The notes under the pieces were generated by a model. That model was not told where the DNA came from. It ran no database searches and saw only the letters and a list, made by a program, of their open reading frames with translations. Below are positions 53,476 through 64,000 of a DNA stretch of 64,000 bases, in pieces. The stretch lies in assembly GCF_019173455.1 (NCBI RefSeq), contig NZ_JADPQH010000001.1, forward strand, positions 744,001-808,000, in the 5' to 3' direction. The stretch is from Nesterenkonia sp. Act20. Its GTDB lineage: Bacteria; Actinomycetota; Actinomycetes; Actinomycetales; Micrococcaceae. The translations under genes were made by a program, and so were the position numbers. Numbering within the stretch: the first letter of the stretch is position 1; each line of letters starts with the position of its first letter.

Positions 53476-53884
53476 CTCCGGAGACTTCCAGCTGGCCCAC
53501 TCCGGGGATCAGACCGAGAACTGGCACCTGGGCCCGCACCGTGATGGTCAGAATCCGCCCCTCGACTTGCGTCTCGTACTGATAGTGCACGCCCTGGGCA
53601 TAGTGGGAGGAGATGGAGGATTGGATCAGAGCCTGTGTCCTTGCAACCCCATCCTGAGCGGTTCGATCCTCGAGCACTCCGAATCTCGCTCCCGTGGAGG
53701 CCGCATCAATCAACGTATTGCGAACATGCACCAACAGCGTCAACTGGATGATCGCAAAGGTGAGCACCACCAGAAGGGATGAGACCATCGCAAACTCGGC
53801 AGTGGCCGCGCCACGTTCACCGGCGCGGTACCAAGTGGTTGCGTGACCGCACCGCTCAGCGCGAGACCTGGTTGATCGCGTCAT
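53456..53884 (-). CDS. TadE family protein
   Basis: A 142-aa TadE-like protein. From ATG 53884 the basic leader leads to RGAATAEFAMVSSLLVVLTFAIIQLTLLVHVRNTL, a prepilin-like site with Glu followed by a helix. I chose this start because it follows an AGGG ribosome binding site; the frame is open to 53935 with Cys-rich translation unlike a leader. The start overlaps the end of the small pilin-like gene by 29 nt. Confidence 0.8.
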   Translation of the reverse strand: MTRSTRSRAERCGHATTWYRAGERGAATAEFAMVSSLLVVLTFAIIQLTLLVHVRNTLIDAASTGARFGVLEDRTAQDGVARTQALIQSSISSHYAQGVHYQYETQVEGRILTITVRAQVPVLGLIPGVGQLEVSGGAYEFE

Positions 53885-54050
53885 TGAACAAGCCCTGCAG
53901 CGCAGGTTGAGCAATTGCCAGCAGACCTGCCACAAGCACGGCGCTCATCAGTGTGATCATCACCCACCCAGGGACGTCGCCGCGTTCCTCTGCATGAAGC
54001 ATTTTCAGGATTCGTACCTGATCACTGATGACCTCTTCGGTGAGTCCCAT
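53856..54050 (-). CDS. Flp-pilin-like small membrane protein
   Basis: A 64-aa protein between tadC and tadE, in the place of the main Flp pilin. The N-terminal half is charged (MGLTEEVISDQVRILKMLHAEERGDVP), and one helix follows (GWVMITLMSAVLVAGLLAIAQPALQGLF). A similar ERGDVPGWV..TLM pattern recurs in Micrococcaceae and Microbacteriaceae tad loci (from memory). The usual Glu at +5 after the cleavage Gly is absent, so processing is unclear. The following tadE overlaps it. Confidence 0.7.
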   Translation of the reverse strand: MGLTEEVISDQVRILKMLHAEERGDVPGWVMITLMSAVLVAGLLAIAQPALQGLFNDAINQVSR

Positions 54051-54109: not shown

Positions 54110-55054
54110 TCATATCCCGATCTCGAGCAGCGAGAGCCCCGGATAGATGGCGAAGAGCACCGTCAGCGGCAGTACGCCGAAGACCAGAGGCACGAGCATG
54201 CCGATCTCCTTCTTACCTGCCGTCTCCATGAGGTCCCTGCGGCCGAGTTCGCGGACGTCTTGAGCCTGCGCCTGCATCACTTCGGCCAATGGTGTGCCAC
54301 GCTCCATCGCCACGATGAGGCCCTCGATAAACCGTGAGACCGGGGCTGAGCCGACACGGGTAGACATGTGTTTTAACGCCTGCGTGAAACCGGTCCCTGC
54401 CTGCGTCTGGTGAAGGACGAGTGTGAGTTCGGCGGCCAGCTCACCCCGAGCCAAACGTCCGACCCGCTCGAATGCGCCGGCCGCGCTCTCTCCCGCGCTG
54501 ACGGAAAGAGCGATCATCTCTGCGACAGTCGGGAACTCCGCAAGCATGCGGGATTGGCGTCGCCGAATCTGGCTGCTCAGCAGGTTGTCCCTCAGTGCGG
54601 CACCGAGTATGGACAGTACGATGACCGCCACCACGGCGAGGGCCCCGTTGAAGTTGCCGACCAAGAAGCCCACCAAGCTCAGCACCGTTCCGAGGACCCC
54701 GCCGAAAATTCCCAGTGCCAACTGCTGGAGCCGGTATTCGTTCGGCCCGAGGCGGGAATTCGCCTGGTCCAGGCGTCTGCGAAGCTCATGGGTGTCGACA
54801 CTGAAACGATCGAGCTGGCGGAGGGCATGCCGGAAGACCGGCGACATGATTCTGCCCAGCGTCCCCAGTGCGGGGGCGGCGTCCGTGGCATCGGCCGTGA
54901 GTGCGAACCGCGAGTCCCCGGAGCGCAGGTAGGGTGCTACCCGGGTGGTGAAACTCGGTTGATTGTTCAACGGCAGCGCGTTGACAACGGTGACCAGGCC
55001 GAGCCCGAGTGCCAACCCACAGGTGAGGACCCACCCTAGGCTCGTCGCATTCAT
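54110..55054 (-). CDS. tadC: Type II secretion F domain protein, TadC-like
   Basis: A 314-aa membrane platform protein. Five or so helices flank a T2SSF domain (LAEFPTVAEMIALSVSAGESAAGAFERVGRLARGELAAELTLVLHQTQAGTGFTQALKHMSTR and later ELGRRDLMETAGKKEIGMLVPLVFGVLPLTVLFAIYPG). It pairs with TadB to form the inner-membrane part of the Flp pilus machine. It overlaps tadB by 4 nt. Confidence 0.85.
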   Translation of the reverse strand: MNATSLGWVLTCGLALGLGLVTVVNALPLNNQPSFTTRVAPYLRSGDSRFALTADATDAAPALGTLGRIMSPVFRHALRQLDRFSVDTHELRRRLDQANSRLGPNEYRLQQLALGIFGGVLGTVLSLVGFLVGNFNGALAVVAVIVLSILGAALRDNLLSSQIRRRQSRMLAEFPTVAEMIALSVSAGESAAGAFERVGRLARGELAAELTLVLHQTQAGTGFTQALKHMSTRVGSAPVSRFIEGLIVAMERGTPLAEVMQAQAQDVRELGRRDLMETAGKKEIGMLVPLVFGVLPLTVLFAIYPGLSLLEIGI

Positions 55055-55911
55055 GCCAGGACACGCACCTCTTGTGGAAGAGCCCCGATGCGCAGCATCA
55101 GGCGGTAACAGCCCACAGACACAATCAGTCCCCCACCCAGGACCAACATGCCTGTGGCGTTCTGATACGCCTGCGCCGCCTCAGCCTGAAGAGAAATCAG
55201 GAGCACGACTATCCAAGGGGCGGCGACTGCGAGTTTGGCGGCATTGACCGTCCAAGACTGACGCGCTTCGAGTTCGCTCCTGGTGCGCGCGTTTTCACGA
55301 AGAAAGTCGGCCAAGGTGCCGAGCAGGCGACCAAGGTCTGACCCCCCAACCTCGCGGGTGATCTGGAGCGCAACCACAATCCTGTCACCGACGGGATCAG
55401 CCAGCCGAAGCTTGAGTCGGTCGAGCGCCGTAGCCATGGTGTGTCCCGATCGATAGTCCTTCGCGAACTCCACAAAAGGCTCCCGGAGAGGCTCCGGGCC
55501 TGAATGTCCGAGCTGAATGAGCCCTTCCGGGAGGGACATGCCAGAGCGGACTGCCGAACGGAGGTGGTCTACTGCATCGGGCCAGACCTCGCGCAACACT
55601 GCGCGGCGCCGTCCTGCTTGCCAACGCAGGGCGAAGATGGGCACCATGGCAGCAAACAACGCGAAACACAGGGCGATCGGGATGGCCGCCGTGAGCACAA
55701 GGACTATCAAGAAGGCCATGACGGAGCAGATCAGCACCGCCGTGGCCACGCCCGTCACAGGGAGTCTGGGGTGCCCGGCCTCATCAAGAAGCTTGCGCAG
55801 TGGGTTCCGACGTCTACGCCGAGAACGCGTCGTGGGGAGTCGGCGGGGCCAGAAGGACGAGAAGACGAGCAGAAACCCGAGACCCAGGGCAAACCCCAGC
55901 AAGAGACTCAT
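55051..55911 (-). CDS. tadB: Type II secretion F domain protein, TadB-like
   Basis: A 286-aa membrane protein with two N-terminal helices, a basic loop, a T2SSF domain (VWPDAVDHLRSAVRSGMSLPEGLIQLGHSGPEPLREPFVEFAKDYRSGHTMATALDRL) and C-terminal helices. It overlaps tadA and tadC by 4 nt each. Gene order A-B-C is standard. Confidence 0.87.
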   Translation of the reverse strand: MSLLLGFALGLGFLLVFSSFWPRRLPTTRSRRRRRNPLRKLLDEAGHPRLPVTGVATAVLICSVMAFLIVLVLTAAIPIALCFALFAAMVPIFALRWQAGRRRAVLREVWPDAVDHLRSAVRSGMSLPEGLIQLGHSGPEPLREPFVEFAKDYRSGHTMATALDRLKLRLADPVGDRIVVALQITREVGGSDLGRLLGTLADFLRENARTRSELEARQSWTVNAAKLAVAAPWIVVLLISLQAEAAQAYQNATGMLVLGGGLIVSVGCYRLMLRIGALPQEVRVLA

Positions 55912-56930
55912 CCCAGCACCCCTGCCCTAGTCAGCCGGCTATGCATCTCTGGACTCAGTTTGGGAAGGTCGAAGACCGCCGAATCAGTGATCTGCAGAAC
56001 GCCGTCCCGTTGTTGGAAGAGCATCGACGTCTCGATCGTCTCGGATTCGACACGACTCCCAACCGCCAGTATCTGGCCGACATAGCGGCGGCCGTCTCTT
56101 TCCCTCACGCAATGCACCACAAGATCGATGCAGGATGCCACCGTTGGAAGAATGAAGTTTCTGGAGATGTTCTCTCCTGCGAGGAGCGGGAGTGTGCAGA
56201 TCTTCGTCAATGCATCGTGCGCGCTGTTGGCGTGCACCGTTGCCATTCCAGGAAGTCCTGCGTTGAGTGCAATGAGCATGTCGAGGCTTTCGGCTTCCCG
56301 AACCTCTCCCACAATGAGGCGATCCGGGCGCATTCGCAGAGCCTCTTTGACGAGCTTCCGGAGTGGAATCTCCCCTTCGCCCTCGAGGTTGGTCTGCCTG
56401 CATTGCAGACCGACTACGTCACGCAGCGGCAGCTGCAGTTCAAAGATCTCCTCAACTGTGATCACGCGTTCTCGCGGGCCGATGGCAGTGGAGAGACAGT
56501 TCAACATCGTCGTCTTTCCAGCCTGGGTGGCACCAGAGATCAAAATATTGAGTCCACTGTCAACGCAACCGGTGAGGAACTCCGCCGCCTCTGGGGTCAG
56601 CGAGCCCCCCTGCACCAGGTCGTCGATTGTCGCGGTGCGCGAGATGAATTTGCGAACATTGACAGCCCAGTGGCGTCTCGTGATGTCCGGAATGACCACG
56701 TGAAGGCGAGAACCATCTGGGAGAGCCGCGTCGACGAACGGGGAGGACAGATCGAGACGACGACCCGAGCTCTTGAGCATCCGTTCGACGAGGTCTCGGA
56801 TACGCGATTCCGACAGCGTGAGCGACGTCAGCTCCGATCGACCTTCACGGGCGACGAAGACCTCGCTGGGTCCGTTGATCCAGAACGCCCGGTCTAGTGT
56901 TGGACGGTGTTGGTTGCCGTCTACTTCCGC
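55908..56930 (-). pseudogene. tadA: tadA/cpaF pilus ATPase, 5'-truncated
   Basis: The preserved part contains a full ATPase core: GRRLDLSSPFVDAALPDGSRLH, Walker A GATQAGKTTMLN, EIFELQLPL, VKEALRMRPDRLIVGEVR and ANSAHDALTKI. The first ATG is at 56780, but homologous codons (AFWINGPSEVFVAREGRSELT) continue upstream in frame without any start codon until a TAA at 56931-56933. A complete CpaF has about 100 more residues and an N-terminal helical region. The N-terminal part is therefore missing, cut near 56.9 kb, exactly where phage-like DNA begins. A protein from ATG 56780 (290 aa) might still be made but would lack the N-domain. Confidence 0.85.
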
Positions 56931-57003
56931 TTATCTAAAGGGATCTAGACGTTTGTCGCTGTTGGGCGTTTACCCCGGTATATGGGCCTCGTGAGGACTC
57001 CAT

Positions 57004-57282
57004 GTGTCCATGAGCGGCCGTCCTTGGCATACTTGGGCGATGACTGAAGCCAGATACAAGGTAACCATTGACGACATCTACTACGAGTTTGAAAGCTTCG
57101 AAAAATTGGGCGGGGAAGTGACGAGAGAAGCATCTCTGCAGGGCCAGAACGTGCACACGCGCAGGACGCCAACCACATATAAGCTCAGGAATGTCACGCG
57201 AGAAGGTGGTGACGTCGTCGATCCCCCGAAGGACCGCGAGATCCGAGTGCGCGAAAGAAGCACTATTCCCATGAAGCTTTAG
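57004..57282 (+). CDS. Hypothetical protein at the edge of the phage-like element
   Basis: A 92-aa protein (GTG 57004, after GAGGA 6 nt upstream; an ATG in frame lies at 57040). The sequence from TEARYKVTIDDIYYEFESFEKLG is charged, with no known family, signal or membrane segment. It stands alone on the plus strand, has lower GC than its neighbours and is preceded by TATATG as a possible -10. It is probably foreign to the core genome. Confidence 0.55.
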   Translation: MSMSGRPWHTWAMTEARYKVTIDDIYYEFESFEKLGGEVTREASLQGQNVHTRRTPTTYKLRNVTREGGDVVDPPKDREIRVRERSTIPMKL

Positions 57283-57287
57283 ACAGA

Positions 57288-57352
57288 GCTGGACCCCTAC
57301 CTTGTGGGGAGCCGATCTAGAATCGGGTGCCCATCCTCGGTAGAGGTCCAGC
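57288..57352. other. Foldable inverted-repeat element at the element edge
   Basis: GCTGGACC-C-CTACC at 57288-57301 pairs with GGTAG-A-GGTCCAGC at 57339-57352 (13 of 14 positions), and the inner CCGAT/ATCGG (57312-57316 with 57322-57326) forms a second hairpin. It starts 5 nt after the stop of the 57004 gene. It could be an RNA terminator or structured RNA, or part of an integration site. No T-run follows. The sequence does not resemble a tRNA (no T-arm). Confidence 0.5.
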
Positions 57353-57380
57353 CGGCAACGGCACCTACGCCACTACTAAG

Positions 57381-57400
57381 TATACCCCCTAGGGGTACTA
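57381..57400. promoter_or_regulatory. CsoR-family-like palindrome
   Basis: TATACCCCCTAGGGGTACTA has the TACCCC/GGGGTA arms seen in operators of CsoR/CstR/FrmR-type regulators. It ends on the stop codon of the stopper gene and is 100 bp after the plus-strand gene, so no gene lies in the usual place behind it. It may be a remnant of a lost promoter. Confidence 0.4.
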
Positions 57401-57733
57401 TCCGGTCACTCTTTCTGACACGAACTCGTGGTGACTGATCCTGCCCCGGATCATCTGGGGCTGAATCCTGCCGTCCACAGTGAGCGTGTTCCCCCGCCAG
57501 GTGACCTGCTCGATTACGGCGGGGTCAACGTCGGCGGGTAGCTTCATCATCACGCGGTAGCGGCTGATGATCTGCTGCGTGTCGCTGTCCGGCCCGTCCA
57601 TGCTGCTTGCGGGGTCTACCTGCGCCGGAACCACCTGAGTGGACGGCGGGGCGATGATGGGCTGGTTGTACGCGTCGCGCTCTCCGGTGTCGCCACCAGG
57701 GATCGTGACTGTCACGCGGTCATGGAAGAACAC
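57398..57733 (-). CDS. Phage head-to-tail stopper-like protein
   Basis: A 111-aa protein beginning with GTG 57733 (FFHDRVTVTIPGGD), a pattern recalled from actinobacteriophage head-to-tail stoppers, with a beta-rich C-terminus (VTWRGNTLTVDGRIQPQMIRGRISHHEFV). Stoppers plug the portal after DNA packaging. It overlaps the adaptor gene stop by one nt, is the last head gene on the minus strand, and no tail gene follows it. Confidence 0.65.
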   Translation of the reverse strand: MFFHDRVTVTIPGGDTGERDAYNQPIIAPPSTQVVPAQVDPASSMDGPDSDTQQIISRYRVMMKLPADVDPAVIEQVTWRGNTLTVDGRIQPQMIRGRISHHEFVSERVTG

Positions 57734-58056
57734 TATTTGGCCCTCTTCCTGTACCGGTTGAGCACGAACTGTTCTGGCAGTGACCAGCCGTTGAACGCCC
57801 CTGAGATCCGCGCTGATCCTGCCGCCCAGCTGAGCTGTTCAGGGTTGGATACCAGGCGCGCTGTAGCGGTGGTGATGACTGCAGCGATGTCCTCTGACAC
57901 CGATCCTGCCTCGAAGCCGTTGTCACGGGTGTAGGAGCGCGCCATAGCGGTGACGATGGGAAGGTGCTCCCCGGCCATAGCGACAACCGTAGGGTCATCA
58001 CTGAGGCCGAGGAACGCCGCGACATCCCCACCTGTCGGTGTGGAAGTCATCTCCAT
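57733..58056 (-). CDS. Phage head-to-tail adaptor-like protein
   Basis: A 107-aa helical protein (MEMTSTPTGGDVAAFLGLSDDP). Sequence features, DVAAFLGL...VTAMARSYTRDNGFEAGSVSEDIAAVITTATARLVSNP, match gp6/head-to-tail connectors of actinobacteriophages, which sit below the portal ring. ATG 58056 or 58050 are both possible; the gene follows directly after the capsid stop. Confidence 0.7.
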   Translation of the reverse strand: MEMTSTPTGGDVAAFLGLSDDPTVVAMAGEHLPIVTAMARSYTRDNGFEAGSVSEDIAAVITTATARLVSNPEQLSWAAGSARISGAFNGWSLPEQFVLNRYRKRAK

Positions 58057-58057
58057 G

Positions 58058-58897
58058 TCAGACCGCCGTGCTGTCGAGGATGACCACGCCTTCGGGGTGC
58101 AGCAGTCCGAGGTCAAACCGTGCGGTGACCCGGATGGCCTGCTGATCGAACTCGGCGTAACGCTGATCGAGGATCTTGATCTGCGGGTTGGTGTCACGGG
58201 CGACCGCGACCTGCGAGATATCCGCCAGGACCGCCTTACCAGCAGGAACCTTGTTGGACACGGTCACCGGGATGTTGAACAGCCGGTAGGTCGCATCACG
58301 GGTGAGATCCGACTCCAGCAGGTATCGCCCGTTCTGGTCCTTGAGCTTCCGCACCGTGATGAAGTCCTGAGCGTTGAGGAACCACCGATTCGGGGTGACC
58401 TCAGCAGCCGTGGTGACGGCCAGAGCGTCGAGGAACGTGTCAGCGCTGGCGAGGTCCAGCGGCGCACTCTGGGTTCCGGGCTGGTTGAAGATGCCGGTCA
58501 CAGAATCGTTGAGGCCGTCCCCATTGAGGAACGCATCATCGATCATGGATGACACGTCGTTGACCAGTCGGGACCGCAGCACGGCGTCGAGGCCGACCAC
58601 GGACTGCCGGGCCAGCTCATTCGAGTAGCGCGTAATCACCTTGACCGACTTGCGGCCTTCTGGCATCAGCCGGACCTCGTCGAACTCGGCGGTGTAGTCG
58701 TCCGGGATCTGCTCGGACTCTCCCACCCATGCGGGGGTGCCGGAGCCGACAAGCTTCGGGATTCGCAGCGGGGATGCGGTGTCGAAGATCCGTGGTCCAG
58801 CGGCCAGCACGATAGAGGCTGTTTCGAGCGGCTGGATCAGAAGTGAGGAGACCTGCTCCTGGAGCAGTTCCGGGGTGTCAGTGGTGTTCAGTGCCAT
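58058..58897 (-). CDS. Phage major capsid protein (HK97 fold)
   Basis: A 279-aa capsid protein with the HK97-family pattern: an N-terminal arm (NTTDTPELLQEQVSSLLIQPLETASIVLAAGPRIFDTASPLRIPKLVGSGTPAWVGESEQIPD), the E-loop region, VITRYSNELARQSV and the P-domain (DDAFLNGDGLNDSVTGIFNQ), and the C-terminal A-domain (AVARDTNPQIKILDQRYAEFDQQAIRVTARFDLGLLHPEG). No fused protease is present; a separate scaffold gene lies upstream. Its 131-bp leader contains a GTCCG/CGGAC hairpin (58928-58941). Confidence 0.92.
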   Translation of the reverse strand: MALNTTDTPELLQEQVSSLLIQPLETASIVLAAGPRIFDTASPLRIPKLVGSGTPAWVGESEQIPDDYTAEFDEVRLMPEGRKSVKVITRYSNELARQSVVGLDAVLRSRLVNDVSSMIDDAFLNGDGLNDSVTGIFNQPGTQSAPLDLASADTFLDALAVTTAAEVTPNRWFLNAQDFITVRKLKDQNGRYLLESDLTRDATYRLFNIPVTVSNKVPAGKAVLADISQVAVARDTNPQIKILDQRYAEFDQQAIRVTARFDLGLLHPEGVVILDSTAV

Positions 58898-58975
58898 GAG
58901 AAAAGTCCTAGCGATAGAGGTTCAACTGTCCGGTTTCGGACGGTTGGTGAGTTTCCTCGTGTCGCCAGGACTACT

Positions 58976-59006
58976 GAGAGGGCCGGACACCAGGCCCGAC
59001 CCTCTC
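58976..59006 (-). terminator. Hairpin between accessory gene and capsid gene
   Basis: GAGAGGG pairs with CCCTCTC with partial inner pairing (CGGGCC/GGCC). It lies 22 bp after the stop of the minus-strand accessory gene and before the capsid gene. It may be a partial terminator or an mRNA-stabilising hairpin for capsid expression. Confidence 0.4.
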
Positions 59007-59028
59007 ATTGTAGCATGGAAGAACGCGT

Positions 59029-59415
59029 TTAGTCCTGCTGAGGGATATCACCCATATCAGTCACGCGAATGGTTTTTCCTTGGGCAACCCTGGTTCTCAT
59101 ACGCAGCTCAAATCCGTGCGTGATAGACCTTAGAAACTCGAAGGGATCAACATCGTGGACCAGATAATCAGTGACTTCCAGTTCGTCCGTCTCACCATCT
59201 TTTAGCGCCTTGATTGCCTCCCACTGCGCCACGATGACATGCAGACTCTGATGCCGCTCTCCGCCACCGATATCTAGCCCGACAACGTGTTCGTTTTCGC
59301 CCAGACCCAAGCGCTGGTCAATGGTCTCGGTGTTGGTTTTTCGCTCGTCGAGCTGTGCAGTACCCGACCAATCGGGGTAGGTGACCTCAGCGTCTCTCCA
59401 GATAAACGGTTCCAT
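59029..59415 (-). CDS. Hypothetical protein inserted between scaffold and capsid genes
   Basis: A 128-aa acidic protein of unknown family (MEPFIWRDAEVTYPDWSGTAQLDERKTNTETIDQRLGLGENE, ending RVTDMGDIPQQD). No signal, membrane or nucleic-acid motif is visible. It has its own GC character, slightly lower than its neighbours, and a short 11-nt gap from the scaffold gene, and it ends with a hairpin. Placement inside the head module suggests a late-expressed accessory (moron) gene or a specific assembly factor; neither can be shown. Confidence 0.6.
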   Translation of the reverse strand: MEPFIWRDAEVTYPDWSGTAQLDERKTNTETIDQRLGLGENEHVVGLDIGGGERHQSLHVIVAQWEAIKALKDGETDELEVTDYLVHDVDPFEFLRSITHGFELRMRTRVAQGKTIRVTDMGDIPQQD

Positions 59416-59426
59416 GATCGCCTTCC

Positions 59427-59897
59427 TTAGTTGGCTCCAGCGCGGAGTAGTCCGGCTAGGTCCACTGTAGATGTGCCGTGGGTCACAGATCCTTGCCCGA
59501 TGTTGCCGGACGGTTTCCGCGCCGCCAGGTGAGGCTTCCTGGTCAGCAGCTCATCTATGGCCGCTGTGAGCTTGTCTGCGTCGTTTAGGTGCTCGTCGGA
59601 GAACTCCAGGTCGGTAGGGTCCGCGAGTCGCCCTGTGGCCTCTACGCGGCTCCTGTGCAGCTCGTGGGCCAGCTCGTCCGCACGCTGCGCCCTCTGCCTG
59701 TACTTCGCGTTCTCGTCGCGGAGCTTCTCCACATAGGACCGGGGAAACTGCTCCCCCTCTTCGTCGATCTCTTCATCCGTCTTGCCCTGATCCGAAATCT
59801 GGTCATCTTCGGTTGAGGTCGCGTTTGAAACGCGAGCGTCCTCCGCGGTCTCGTCCTCGTCCGTGGTCTGCACGTCCTGAGTCTGTTCTTCGGTCAC
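59427..59897 (-). CDS. Phage scaffolding protein
   Basis: A 156-aa acidic, helical protein. A long acidic N-terminus (TEEQTQDVQTTDEDETAEDA) is followed by a coiled-coil region (YVEKLRDENAKYRQRAQRADELAHELHRSRVEATGRLADPTDLEF) and LNDADKLTAAIDELLTRKPHLA, typical of scaffolds of actinobacteriophages. It shapes the procapsid and leaves before packaging. I chose GTG 59897, 5 nt after GGAGAAG. It overlaps the MuF-like gene by 4 nt. Confidence 0.85.
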   Translation of the reverse strand: MTEEQTQDVQTTDEDETAEDARVSNATSTEDDQISDQGKTDEEIDEEGEQFPRSYVEKLRDENAKYRQRAQRADELAHELHRSRVEATGRLADPTDLEFSDEHLNDADKLTAAIDELLTRKPHLAARKPSGNIGQGSVTHGTSTVDLAGLLRAGAN

Positions 59898-60436
59898 TGG
59901 TCTTCTCCATTCTCTGAAACGGGAACTGCGATGCACGCGCAGCCCTTGTGGTGATAGTGATTTTCGGTCGTCGGTAGAACCATGTCGGCCATGTCCTGAC
60001 AGATCTCGCAGGCGTCCGGCTCCACCTGCCGCCGGGAGAACGTGACCCCCTGGTCCTGCATAGATCGAGCCGTGGTGTCCTGGTAAGCGGCCATGACCAC
60101 CGCTGCCCCGGCGATACCCATAGCCGTGTTGCCGTCCTGCTGATAGGACTGCGTCGCGGTCTGGTCATTGAGCTGAGCCCGCGCCGCCGTCTCGATGTCA
60201 TAGCCCGCCCCTCCCCCGGTAGGTGCCCTGACCCTGCCCGAGAGCCTGGACAGTTCAGCAGCGACCGCGAGAGCCGCCAGAGACGACGCGGCCTGAGACC
60301 TGCGTGTGGCCTCCGCCGCTCCGAGGTCCATGAACTGCTCCCAGGACAGCTCCCCGTCCTCATAGCGCCCATGCAGCGCCGCCAGGCGTGCCCTGGTCTC
60401 CCGTGACAGCGTCGCCACCGTGTCGTGAATACTCAT
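59894..60436 (-). CDS. Phage MuF-like minor capsid protein
   Basis: A 180-aa protein with an N-terminal helical part and a C-terminal MuF-type metal motif EPDACEICQDMADMVLPTTENHYHHKGCACIAVPV (Cys and His ligands). MuF proteins sit in the procapsid and act in DNA ejection or head maturation. It overlaps the portal gene by 4 nt and the scaffold gene by 4 nt. It is shorter than full-length MuF proteins (250-400 aa), with no toxin domain. Confidence 0.75.
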   Translation of the reverse strand: MSIHDTVATLSRETRARLAALHGRYEDGELSWEQFMDLGAAEATRRSQAASSLAALAVAAELSRLSGRVRAPTGGGAGYDIETAARAQLNDQTATQSYQQDGNTAMGIAGAAVVMAAYQDTTARSMQDQGVTFSRRQVEPDACEICQDMADMVLPTTENHYHHKGCACIAVPVSENGEDQ

Positions 60437-61734
60437 GCGAGAAGCGCCTCCAGGTCAGTCCCAGCGGCGTCCAGCGCCTCAGCCCGCCGTGAGTCCCTGA
60501 TCCGGGTGATCTCGATATCGGTGTATCCCAGACGTTCCAGCGCCGCCGATGCCGGGAGCAGACCAGCGGTGAACAGCTTCACCACCGCGTCGGCTTCCTG
60601 AGCCATTGACCGGGTAGCCGGGTCCGCCCAGACCACCGAGACCCCCGCCCGTGACGGGTCAGTGTTGGTCCGGATAGCGTGTGCCAGCGCCATGACCTTC
60701 TCCCAGGCCCGCCCGAACTGGTACTGCCGCTGCTCCACCCGTGCTGTCAGTGACGCCTCAGCAGCCCGCAGACCGTCCGCATTCGGCGGCTGATTCGCCA
60801 CGATCCCCGTGTAGTGACCAGGCAGGGACGAGACCGCCATGATCTGAGAAACGATCGTCCGAATGGCGGTGTCATAGCTGTTGAGATCCGACGCCGGGAG
60901 CTGCCCGAACTTCGCGTCCGGGGCCTCCGCAATCATCATCCTGTTGGACTCCGGGTAAGGGTTGGACTCTTCGCCGTCCTCGTCCTCTTCCAGCTCGATG
61001 CCGGTTCCGAATCGGCGAGGCCGTGCGTAGTACTCCGAACCAACCATGAGGTCTGCCAGAAGTTTGTTCAGGGCATCCTGCAAGGGCGCGATATCCCGCA
61101 GCTCGGATACTCCTTCATCGAGCAGCCGGTCACTGTTGCGGAACTCCACCACCGGAACGACGCCCAGCGGATTGTCGATGGATTCACGGACCTTGAACTG
61201 CGCCCCCGATGTCGCGTTCTGTGAGTCCGACACGTACCGGATGATCTTCTCCGGCCCATACAGGACCGCCTCAGACCCCGTGGCGGTGTTCCACTTCTTC
61301 ACCGCTGCCACCAGTCGCCGCGTGCCCGGATCTCGCAACGCGGTCATCTGGTGAGCAGACTCCACGCTGATGCTCGGTGCCCCAGTGCTGTCGGCCCAGA
61401 CAATCGCATAAGCGGTGCCCAGGGTGAGAGCTTCACGGTGCAGAGTCCCCGCCATCTGGTCGAGATCATTCCCGGTCCAGTCTCCCCACAGTGCCGGGTC
61501 CGGTTTCCCGTCACGGGTGAAGCCGGTGATCCGCAGACGCTCCGCGATAGAGGTCACCGCGAGCCGGCAGAAGTTCGATGCGATGTGCCCGAACCTGTTG
61601 CCCAGCGCTTCACGGGCCTCCGGTGTCAGGAACGCCAGCGGCGGATTCCCGTTGTAGTAGCGGTCAAGCTTGTCGAGCTTCACCGTGCGCCCGTCGATCT
61701 CCTGGATCAGTGCCTGTAGCTGTGTTGTACTCAC
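60433..61734 (-). CDS. Phage portal protein
   Basis: A 433-aa portal of the SPP1 gp6-like type. Its pattern includes KLDRYYNGNPPLAFLTPEAREALGNRFGHIASNFCRLAVTSIAERLRITGF, a GYTDIEITRI-type C-terminus and the clip/wing segment FKVRESIDNPLGVVPVVEFRNSDRLLDEGVSELRDIAPLQDALNKLLADLM. It forms the dodecameric ring through which DNA is packed. It overlaps terL by 4 nt, and its stop overlaps the MuF-like gene. Confidence 0.92.
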   Translation of the reverse strand: MSTTQLQALIQEIDGRTVKLDKLDRYYNGNPPLAFLTPEAREALGNRFGHIASNFCRLAVTSIAERLRITGFTRDGKPDPALWGDWTGNDLDQMAGTLHREALTLGTAYAIVWADSTGAPSISVESAHQMTALRDPGTRRLVAAVKKWNTATGSEAVLYGPEKIIRYVSDSQNATSGAQFKVRESIDNPLGVVPVVEFRNSDRLLDEGVSELRDIAPLQDALNKLLADLMVGSEYYARPRRFGTGIELEEDEDGEESNPYPESNRMMIAEAPDAKFGQLPASDLNSYDTAIRTIVSQIMAVSSLPGHYTGIVANQPPNADGLRAAEASLTARVEQRQYQFGRAWEKVMALAHAIRTNTDPSRAGVSVVWADPATRSMAQEADAVVKLFTAGLLPASAALERLGYTDIEITRIRDSRRAEALDAAGTDLEALLA

Positions 61735-63200
61735 TTGAAACTCCTAGCTCGTCGCTTCTTCTTCTTGGTCATTGCCCGCCACTGCGCCCGTGAGTGGCCC
61801 ATCACCGCGCACGCCGCGAGGTCAATGTGACGGGTGGTGTGTTTGCGTGACTTGTCCAGCCGGACTCCCCGCTCGGTCTCGTTCACCACCGCGTTGCCGA
61901 TGTGCTCGGCCAGCCGTGGATCTCCGGTGTGCGTGATCTGCCCGTTGATGCACGCGTTATAGAAGTCCGTGGTCGCCGGGGTGATCCGTGCAGCCGACCA
62001 GGGAAACTCCGTGATGGGGATACCTTCCTTCTCCAGCACCTGCAATGTCCTGGTCCACCGGAACGGGTCCGCCGTGACCTCCAGAACGTTCCACCGCTTG
62101 CACGCCGCCCGGATCGCGTCCTCGACTTCCTCCACCGGCACCCGGTAGCTGTCATCGTCACCAGGGGGTTCCCACAGGCCCACCACGTCGAAGTGAGGTT
62201 CCATCCCGATACGTGCCACCAGGACACCTGTGGCGTCGCCGTTGAAGGAGCCGTCCAGGGCCAGGACCACGTCCTCCCCCTCCGCGATCTCTTCCCCGGT
62301 GTTCATCTCTTCCCACCGACCTTCTGGCAGGAACGCGCCCGTGGTCTCCGTGACAAACTGGCAGAGACGTGCGCGCCGGTAGGTCGCTTCACGGGTCTTC
62401 GGGGGAAGCAGCGCCTTGATGGTCGAGATGTTCAGGAAGTCGCCTAGAGCAGGATTCGCCAGCTTCAAGCAGTGGTCACAGTCCACCGGGTGATGTTCAA
62501 AACCAGCAGCCGAGAACTCACGCCAGACCAGCGTCGGATCATCCGGGTACTTCCGGTGGTAGTCCCTGAGATTGGTCAGCACGGAGTTGTGAGGATCAGG
62601 TCCAGGGGTGCCGATACCGACCATCGTGGAGCGTTCCCGCTTGCCCTGCGCCAGTGCGACGACTTCCCAGACATCCTGTGAGATCACGCCGATCTCGTCC
62701 GCCAGGGCGAGTGTGAAGTCCAAACCTTCAAGCGCTTTCGGAGACGCGGGGAGCACCTGGAAGCTTGACCCCCGGGACGGGACCTCTAGCCGGTCTTTGT
62801 AGACCTGGACCCGTGAGGAAAGATCCTCATTCAGCTCCACCATCCGGACCGCGACGTTGAAGATGATCTTTGCCTGAGTCTCATTCACCGCGACCACGAC
62901 GACCGACGCCCCGACATCTCCCAGCAGCAGGTCATAGAGTCCCCACGCCGACATGAGCGCGCTCTTCCCGGAGCCACGCGGCATCATGAAACCTGCCTGT
63001 ACCGGCATAGGATCTGCGTCCAGGACCGAGCCCACCAGATCGAGTTGCCAGTCCCTCAGCCGCAGCGGAGAGCCCGCCCCGTGGCCCTTCGGCACCATGA
63101 TGAACTTCTCGCAGAACTTCCCAAACCGAGCAGCACCAGACACACGCGGCCTGAACGGGAGCGGAGAGTCATCAACCTGCCCTTTAGGCCCTGCCTTCAT
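61731..63200 (-). CDS. terL: Phage terminase large subunit
   Basis: A 489-aa ATPase/nuclease that packages DNA. Walker A-like MMPRGSGKSALM lies near residue 75, a Walker B-like segment is LDFTLALADEIG, and the nuclease Asp motif is VLALDGSFNGDATGVLVARIG with a late Asp in ITADPFRW-like VTADPFRW. The C-terminus is basic. The ATG lies within the end of the HNH gene. No separate small terminase gene can be recognised before it in the window. Confidence 0.92.
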   Translation of the reverse strand: MKAGPKGQVDDSPLPFRPRVSGAARFGKFCEKFIMVPKGHGAGSPLRLRDWQLDLVGSVLDADPMPVQAGFMMPRGSGKSALMSAWGLYDLLLGDVGASVVVVAVNETQAKIIFNVAVRMVELNEDLSSRVQVYKDRLEVPSRGSSFQVLPASPKALEGLDFTLALADEIGVISQDVWEVVALAQGKRERSTMVGIGTPGPDPHNSVLTNLRDYHRKYPDDPTLVWREFSAAGFEHHPVDCDHCLKLANPALGDFLNISTIKALLPPKTREATYRRARLCQFVTETTGAFLPEGRWEEMNTGEEIAEGEDVVLALDGSFNGDATGVLVARIGMEPHFDVVGLWEPPGDDDSYRVPVEEVEDAIRAACKRWNVLEVTADPFRWTRTLQVLEKEGIPITEFPWSAARITPATTDFYNACINGQITHTGDPRLAEHIGNAVVNETERGVRLDKSRKHTTRHIDLAACAVMGHSRAQWRAMTKKKKRRARSFK

Positions 63201-63615
63201 GTTCCACCCCCTCTAACTGCGAACCATTCGCATGAGTAATAGCCGATTGGCCTACCGGCCCGCGTCTTGAAAGGGGTTCGGGTGACCCCCCTCCCCCAGG
63301 TCTTGCTTGACCGCGAGCAACATTGCAGGCCGAGCACACAACTCCGCCCGTGTGTTCTAGTCCGATTGGTTTGCCGTTGAAGTGTCGCCACCAGGTTTCT
63401 TCTGTGTGGTCGAGCTGGAGATCCTGTGTGGACCCGCAGTCTGAGCAGAAGGGCTGGAGCTTGCGGGCCTTGCGGGATAGGCGCGCCCAGCGGGAGTCGT
63501 AGCCGCGTGCTGAGCTGCTGGTCTTCTTCGGTCGTTGTGCTTTGCGGACTTCGAGCAGGTGCTCGTCGCAGTAGCTGTTCTGTGATGGCTCTCCACAGCT
63601 GAGGCAGAACTTCAT
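63184..63615 (-). CDS. HNH endonuclease
   Basis: A 143-aa HNH nuclease. Zinc ligands appear as CLSCG, YCDEHL, FCSDCGS and CSACN; the HNH core is LQLDHTEETWWRHFNGKPIGLEHTGGVVCSACNVARG. HNH proteins next to terminase are needed for cos-type packaging in phages such as HK97. GGGAGGA lies 6 nt before ATG 63615, which sets the start. The stop is inside terL. An HNH next to terL is also typical of capsid-forming satellites. Confidence 0.88.
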   Translation of the reverse strand: MKFCLSCGEPSQNSYCDEHLLEVRKAQRPKKTSSSARGYDSRWARLSRKARKLQPFCSDCGSTQDLQLDHTEETWWRHFNGKPIGLEHTGGVVCSACNVARGQARPGGGGSPEPLSRRGPVGQSAITHANGSQLEGVEHEGRA

Positions 63616-63824
63616 GCTGATTCCTCCCAAGTTGCGGCGCGCTTGGACCAGCAGGAAGGACAAGGACAAGATGTCTCTGTAGCACCTCGATGCGGGCGAG
63701 GCCGCGTGACCATCTCCAAGGCGACAGATGCAAGCGACTCATAAGGTCCACCAGGAGCAAGGTTTGAGATGTAGCTACAGGCACAGGGCCAGTACCCGCA
63801 GCGGAGGCAGGTCACAGTACTCAC
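63612..63824 (-). CDS. Small Cys-rich phage-type protein
   Basis: A 70-aa protein with two Cys pairs, CLRCGYWPCAC near the start and CPCPSC near the end, which could bind zinc. It starts at GTG 63824 behind GGGAGGGGG and overlaps the HNH gene by 4 nt. It may be a DNA-binding helper or the counterpart of the small terminase, but there is no evidence for the latter. Confidence 0.6.
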   Translation of the reverse strand: MSTVTCLRCGYWPCACSYISNLAPGGPYESLASVALEMVTRPRPHRGATETSCPCPSCWSKRAATWEESA

Positions 63825-64000
63825 GCCGCCCCCTCCCTCATCGCCGGATTCCTGAAGGCGTTGAAGTCGAACGTGGAGGGGCCATCTGGAGCACGATCCA
63901 CCGGGGGATCTCCGAACAACTCATCCGGGCCAGGGGTGTGCGTTGGACGCACATACTCCGGGGGGTGTTCAGTAGACACGCCCTCAGGGGTCGCATTTGA
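63821..64000 (-). CDS. Hypothetical protein, C-terminal part
   Basis: The frame is open from the window edge to TGA 63821-63823, giving 59 residues rich in Pro, Asp and Glu (EHPPEYVRPTHTPGPDELFGDPPVDR) with an ending STFDFNAFRNPAMREGAA. The start lies outside. Its stop overlaps the GTG of the next gene (GTGA). Function cannot be assigned. Confidence 0.5.
   Translation of the reverse strand, partial: SNATPEGVSTEHPPEYVRPTHTPGPDELFGDPPVDRAPDGPSTFDFNAFRNPAMREGAA

Follow-up and report, generated by a model that had tools for sequence, protein, structure and literature searches.

The window analysed here, a stretch of 64,000 nucleotides from Nesterenkonia sp. Act20 (genome G000), contains a group of tad genes bordering on phage-like DNA. 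All are read from the reverse strand. The tadA (cpaF) gene for the Tad/Flp pilus ATPase is present as a 3′ part only (55908–56884), and is followed by intact ORFs of 286 aa (55051–55911) and 314 aa (54110–55054), which were named tadB and tadC from gene order, as it is conserved downstream of tadA in related loci. A further ORF of 64 aa (53856–54050) has the size and place of a Flp pilin and was named on those grounds. Between 53000 and 64000 the G+C content of the window falls from about 0.66 to about 0.60–0.62 across the tad genes and the inserted DNA; composition alone would not mark the boundary.

The tadA frame extends from 55908 to 56930, 340 codons without a stop, and is closed upstream by a TAA at 56931–56933. 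Its 5′ end reads ...DRAFWINGPSEVFVA... and contains no ATG, GTG or TTG before an ATG ending at 56780, leaving an internal ORF of 290 aa (55908–56780) that matches T2SSE in Pfam (PF00437, E 6.7e-35). Re-reading of the frame bore out the first-pass annotation, which had described CpaF-like codons running upstream of the first ATG without a start and then into this TAA. In the Nesterenkonia relatives G016 and G011, TadA is an intact frame of 420 aa (95% and 94% identity). The match to these proteins starts at residue 15 of the window frame and homology ends at about 56884, the 3′ part being 94–95% identical to residues 95–419/420 of the intact relatives and having no start of its own. The possibility that related strains share the short N-terminus was not borne out: intact relatives have the full N-terminus, and others lacking it have insertions of their own. 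It would follow from the break that the Flp pilus is inactive while the inserted DNA is in place.

The two parts of tadA flank an inserted element

Searching the Act20 genome with a relative's N-terminus located the tadA 5′ part at G000:C1:811371–811715 (−), on the same contig and strand as the 3′ part (E 2.3e-58, 86% identity, query residues 1–114). The annotation had held that the 5′ end, some 100 codons, was lost at the boundary. The break is real, as the 420-aa relatives confirm, but the supposedly lost 5′ end is still in the genome, 10,545 bp away on the far side of the inserted DNA, as the annotation had itself allowed.

Comparison with the intact genes of relatives identified a direct repeat of 12 bp (coding strand: TCTGGATCAACG), with one copy at the near junction, 56873–56884 (−) in the window, and the second at G000:C1:811418–811429, outside it. 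We consider this repeat to be the attachment-site core; the offset from core to core is 10,545 bp. It narrows the breakpoint, which had been placed between 56.89 and 56.94 kb, to a position a few bases outside that interval. Within about 151 kb of the Act20 genome, on both strands, the repeat has exactly two copies, which are the two junctions, and this is more than chance would give. The regions examined in G011 and G016 have one copy each. When the flanks were joined at the repeat, a frame of 420 residues from stop to stop was obtained, which aligns without gaps to G011 (94.5%) and G016 (95.5%). Because the joined frame is gap-free over 420 residues, no codon has been lost, and excision at the core would be predicted to restore the gene, as the annotation had proposed. 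The integrase ORF of the inserted DNA (PF00589, E 5.6e-19) ends 33 bp from the far core.

A DNA element has thus been inserted in tadA, with both halves of the gene flanking it, a direct repeat at its two junctions and an integrase at one of them, as is characteristic of site-specific integration; the boundary noted in the window is one junction of this phage-like element. Deletion of the 5′ end was rejected, as every codon is present and the 5′ part shares its contig and strand with the 3′ part at a distance of 10.5 kb, and a point mutation as the cause of the break was likewise rejected. The element's own tyrosine integrase would have inserted it at the 12-bp core, within codons for the motif IWING, leaving tadA in two pieces: about 98 codons at the 5′ end, whose frame continues into element sequence, and a 3′ remainder that lacks a start. 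At the level of sequence, precise excision at the core would restore the 420-aa tadA in frame.

The dN/dS of the tadA 3′ part was 0.030 against G016 and 0.041 against G011, as compared with 0.040 for the intact pair G016–G011. The similarity to the intact pair indicates no relaxed selection, which a recent insertion and a gene still used after excision would explain equally well.

The element encodes its own capsid and packaging proteins

The element occupies 56873–64000 of the window and continues to G000:C1:811429. At its far end lies the tyrosine integrase (L004 15105–16385, +; PF00589; phrog_1, E 6e-57), followed inwards by an HTH repressor-like gene found in the domain and PHROGs scan (L004 14696–15283, +) and an excisionase-like ORF (L004 14429–14836, −; phrog_66, E 2.7e-06). 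In its long reading the excisionase-like ORF overlaps the repressor-like ORF on the opposite strand (L004:14429–15283), and its true start is probably internal. Further inwards come genes for a repressor-like protein of 207 aa (phrog_4583) and a replication-initiation-like protein of 239 aa (phrog_2447), separated by an ORF of 134 aa that had no match.

The packaging and head genes follow on the reverse strand of the window. They comprise an HNH endonuclease-like gene (63184–63669, 161 aa; phrog_144, E 1.4e-09), the terminase large subunit (61731–63200, 489 aa; phrog_9, E 1.6e-80; PF03354, PF20441), the portal protein (60433–61734, 433 aa; PF05133, E 2.7e-37; phrog_104, E 3.3e-108), a head scaffolding protein-like gene (59427–59936, 169 aa; phrog_4708, E 7.4e-07), a major capsid protein of the HK97 type (58058–58897, 279 aa; PF05065, E 7.9e-38; phrog_10, E 4.5e-49) and a head closure protein Hc1-like gene (57398–57733, 111 aa; phrog_501, E 2.9e-08). 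Three ORFs without a PHROGs match are interspersed: one of 180 aa between portal and scaffold (59894–60436), which also has no Pfam match and has relatives in the viral contigs L167 and L169; one of 128 aa in the head operon (59029–59415), with a 50% relative in L167; and one of 154 aa (57733–58197), kept in three of four close IMG/VR relatives at 47–68% identity (tblastn). Between the head genes and the junction, a 92-aa ORF on the forward strand (57004–57282) matched neither PHROGs nor PADLOC. A 70-aa ORF of the element and the 134-aa ORF were also without PHROGs matches. No tail or lysis PHROG was found in 17 element ORFs at E 0.001, although five ORFs without any match could hide one, and PADLOC gave no matches for ten ORFs taken from this element and other inserts.

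Four close relatives (L167–L170) were found in IMG/VR on contigs of 8.7, 11.8, 9.7 and 7.2 kb. They share syntenic HNH, TerL, portal, scaffold and capsid genes with the Act20 element, with capsid identities of 92, 57, 54 and 46%, respectively. The integrase differs: it is absent from the available sequence of L167 and L170, and those of L168 and L169 are only 24–27% alike to it. The flanks of the relatives in the sequence at hand contain no tadA, whereas the Act20 element sits in this gene. L167–L170 form a family of 7–12 kb capsid-encoding elements, L167 having the 92% identical capsid. Known phages are distant, the best identities among the matches listed being 30.5% (integrase), 28.7% (capsid) and 34.1% (terminase), all below 60%. 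With only these distant matches in the phage collection, no helper or parent phage could be named from it. Scans of genome contigs and of viral contigs with the element integrase both returned nothing.

An integrase, regulatory genes and its own capsid and packaging genes, together with the lack of recognised tail or lysis genes, are what is expected of a capsid-encoding satellite. A complete temperate phage would have tail, lysis and full replication modules, which were not found in these 10.5 kb. On its predicted gene content, the element is best filed as capsid-encoding and phage-satellite-like (PICI-like). The element itself is, in our judgement, of an ordinary kind; its location is uncommon, and that this location recurs is the interesting result.

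tadA is interrupted repeatedly across the order

To count interruptions, 396 genomes of the order were searched with intact TadA, and 36 with weak best scores, along with G000, G003 and G023, were re-searched (39 in all). A gene was scored as split when two tadA parts lay in order on one contig and one strand. By this measure inserted DNA interrupts tadA in at least 19 of the 396 genomes, the parts being 5 to 105 kb apart; this is a lower bound, as the 359 genomes outside the re-search were judged by score only. The gene is additionally split in two more Nesterenkonia genomes, G003 and G023. The G003 insert (8.4 kb) encodes a serine integrase and a capsid protein (PF05065), while that of G023 (8.1 kb) combines a serine integrase with a relaxase (Mob_Pre) and a replication protein (Rep_OBD). 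Split genes are spread over many genera, and tadA is a repeated target of different elements. Left out of the count were G072, G133 and G361, whose pieces are on different contigs, and G294, which has an adjacent frameshift; the other flagged genomes had no second collinear tadA piece on re-search. A literature search for tadA or cpaF as an integration target found none in titles and abstract openings among the matches listed, which is not proof that the case is unpublished.

Some loci were more complex. Upstream of the split gene in G368 (G368:C8:511112–517306) are three more short tadA 5′ pieces (residues 13–105), spaced about 2.5–3.4 kb from one another, which looks like a build-up of several insertions or remnants. 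In G361, tadA is in three pieces on three contigs (C93, C50 and C51; L158–L160), with breaks near residues 92–101 and 289–307; the gene may have taken two insertions, or the assembly may be broken there. An Arthrobacter-like tadA (72% identity) lies on a contig labelled Vibrio cholerae strain 35D (L101, WNZI01000073.1), probably through contamination of that assembly.

Numbered on the 420-aa G011 frame, the breaks of the 19 genomes and of G003 and G023 fall at about eight places in tadA: residues ∼96–101 (G000, G003, G271, G283), 119–120 (G305), 140–143 (G023, G226, G300), 150–155 (G298), 160–170 (G080, G146, G153, G330), 213–219 (G368, G384), 303–310 (G169, G260, G299, G309, G402) and 330–334 (G422). 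Conservation of DNA at the eight places was 0.824, as compared with a tadA average of 0.822, and 9324 of 20000 random sets reached it.

Both kinds of recombinase are represented. By Pfam, 14 of the 21 inserts have a large serine integrase (PF00239 plus PF07508) within about 100 bp of a junction, and two (G000 and G305) a tyrosine integrase within the same distance. Two more, found in G080 (105 kb) and G153 (54 kb) and read at their ends, show a serine-integrase-like N-terminus by motif only, and no integrase was present among the ORFs sent to Pfam from G298, G330 and G422 (3/21). The serine integrases group by site, being 48–58% alike at 140, 49% at 215 and 41% between G003 and G283, and four of the five at 305 are 40–51% alike. 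The integrases of G402 and G271 are only about 25–30% like those sharing their place; unrelated groups can meet at one site. Neither tyrosine integrase had a match among the 16 integrases compared. Two kinds of recombinase imply at least two independent origins, the exact number being uncertain because several serine integrase groups are 30–43% alike and may share one tadA-targeting ancestor.

Among 19 loci, in-register repeats of at least 8 bp were found in G023, G260, G402 and G422, besides the 12 bp in G000. Clear repeats of this length were absent at the other loci, as expected for many serine integrases. The cargo across the inserts includes capsid genes, a terminase with a methylase, a primase, a type I restriction subunit and plasmid replication and mobilisation genes; integrases aside, the inserts have little in common.

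Control genes and the rest of the pathway

The ruvB gene (TIGR00635) was matched in 395 of the 396 genomes and none of the 395 was split by an insertion, three weak matches being adjacent frameshifts. It is an imperfect control, limited because loss of ruvB is costly and a hit would be removed by selection. A match to comM (TIGR00368) was found in 191 of 198 genomes, and three of the 191 had collinear splits (18 genomes re-searched). In these, comM-like sequences lie in two collinear pieces (G031:C1:1463078–1474062, G064:C15:48476–60815 and G167:C86:35570–49274) with gaps of 9.5, 10.8 and 12.4 kb, respectively, which are probably insertions, the DNA between the pieces being unread. In G087 and G189, the comM pieces are on different contigs. 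Within the same 198 genomes tadA was split in five as compared with three for comM, which is not clearly more; the remaining 14 tadA splits come from genomes outside this half of the sample.

Downstream of tadA, tadB and tadC were uninterrupted in 78 of 80 loci, all chosen by a tadA match; of the other two, one is cut off by the end of its contig and the other shows a diverged part at the expected spacing. ComEC frames (PF03772) are open, at 679–1103 aa, in 23 of 23 genomes tested, including 21 of 21 with split tadA. Distant TadA-like ATPases in the 39 re-searched genomes nearly all look whole, one of the few exceptions being G133, with two pieces at contig ends.

Discussion

In Micrococcus luteus, a member of the same family, transformation was abolished by every tad gene deletion but the one of tadB, and it depends on two tad loci, according to the available part of the report (PMC4322843). 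In the Actinobacteria studied here, too, DNA uptake is likely to run through the Tad pilus. As far as the available text goes, Croucher and co-workers make the case that elements interrupt competence genes so as to escape removal by transformation (PMC4774983), and comM is often interrupted in Acinetobacter baumannii (PMC11472951, part of the text). A break in tadA would stop the transformation that could replace an element with an empty homologous segment, and elements would gain by disabling the uptake pilus, an intragenomic conflict. Given the requirement for tad genes in M. luteus transformation, such a gain to the elements is the best reading of the data, and we give even odds to conflict over a DNA-uptake pilus as the explanation both of the satellite-like element in tadA and of the repeated targeting. 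By analogy with M. luteus, the Tad pilus would serve transformation in Nesterenkonia, the insertion would abolish it and the elements would benefit; gene order also suggests that the Nesterenkonia tadA is orthologous to the M. luteus tad gene.

The evidence bears on this reading from both sides. Open ComEC frames in 21 of 21 split-tadA genomes and the lack of ruvB splits (0/395) favour it. Against it, the excess of tadA over comM splits is not clear (5 to 3 in 198 genomes), and the contrast with ruvB is weakened by the cost of losing that gene. Furthermore, a second tad locus is also required in M. luteus, yet nearly all of the distant TadA-like ATPases look whole; no split of tadB or tadC, which are likewise needed or important, was seen in 78 of 80 loci, albeit loci chosen by their tadA match; and several serine integrase groups, 30–43% alike, may share one tadA-targeting ancestor.

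The elements might instead have no benefit from loss of the pilus, tadA being conserved enough to offer an attachment site and dispensable enough to tolerate insertion. Conserved genes are often used by site-specific integrases, comM and tadA are both dispensable ATPase genes, and split-tadA strains occur across many genera, all of which suits a merely tolerated target. We nevertheless regard this as rather unlikely, since the eight places are no better conserved than tadA on average (0.824 to 0.822), at least two unrelated kinds of recombinase have converged on one gene and unrelated serine integrases on one site within it, and ruvB was split in none of 395 genomes, costly though its loss is. 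A phage-directed benefit appears improbable. In other phyla some phages use Tad pili as receptors, and several inserts are phage-like, so that elements could break tadA to keep competing phages out; however, a pilus-dependent phage for the order was not found, the G023 insert with its Mob_Pre and Rep_OBD genes resembles a mobilizable plasmid, which extends the pattern beyond phages, and comM, which makes no surface structure, is also split.

Two further readings concern the Act20 locus itself. The restorable frame with its 12-bp core, the Xis-like gene and the purifying selection still visible on the two tadA pieces would fit a regulated switch (active lysogeny), in which the element would leave tadA when the pilus is needed and return later, along the lines of the phage-regulated switch that the annotation had proposed. 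This we hold to be highly improbable: a recent insertion accounts for the selection result equally well, and most of the other inserts carry serine integrases. As only one assembly of the strain was available, an assembly artefact or a simple deletion at the boundary might be suspected, a reading with next to no credit: the 5′ part shares contig and strand with the rest of the gene at a distance of 10.5 kb, the repeat is present at both junctions, and the joined frame is gap-free with no codon missing. An artefact is contradicted by these same features.

If conflict over the uptake pilus is the correct reading, actinobacterial tadA may be a convergent battlefield, in which unrelated satellites, plasmid-like and phage-like elements would repeatedly have evolved integrases that cut this gene at many positions, since the pilus takes up DNA that could cure the host of them, and hosts would lose and regain transformation as elements enter and leave; we put this wider proposal at somewhat short of an even chance. 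The Tad pilus ATPase is a likely new entry on the short list of competence genes interrupted by mobile elements, and comes from a phylum whose transformation is poorly understood. Two questions become testable: whether DNA uptake in Actinobacteria generally goes through Tad pili, and whether insertion sites are chosen by elements so as to stop the host from curing them. The survey also provides a collection of integrases whose natural sites lie in a single gene.

The Act20 element resembles the phiRv1-type prophage-like elements in its size of about 10 kb, its capsid genes and its actinobacterial host. phiRv1 has a serine integrase and another target, whereas the Nesterenkonia element has a tyrosine integrase. 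The Listeria comK prophage interrupts a competence-related gene that, like tadA here, is restorable in frame; excision that is regulated, and has been demonstrated, is a feature of the Listeria system. Candidate capsid-encoding PICIs of Mycobacterium are short and carry an integrase, replication genes, terminase, scaffold and capsid, and use tRNA genes or sites elsewhere, as described in the accessible sections of that report (PMC10654092), the main text of which contains neither ‘tadA’ nor ‘pilus’. As compared with these, the Nesterenkonia element adds portal and head-closure genes of its own and sits in tadA. A parallel in target choice is provided by the elements in comYC, comK, comFA and comM, which in the available text of two reports (PMC4774983, PMC11472951) are site-specific, differ from one another and interrupt transformation genes in many species; ‘tad’ and ‘actinobacteria’ are absent from the main text of both. 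The target described here differs from the com genes in being the Tad/Flp pilus ATPase gene of Actinobacteria, entered at about eight places by elements with serine as well as tyrosine integrases.
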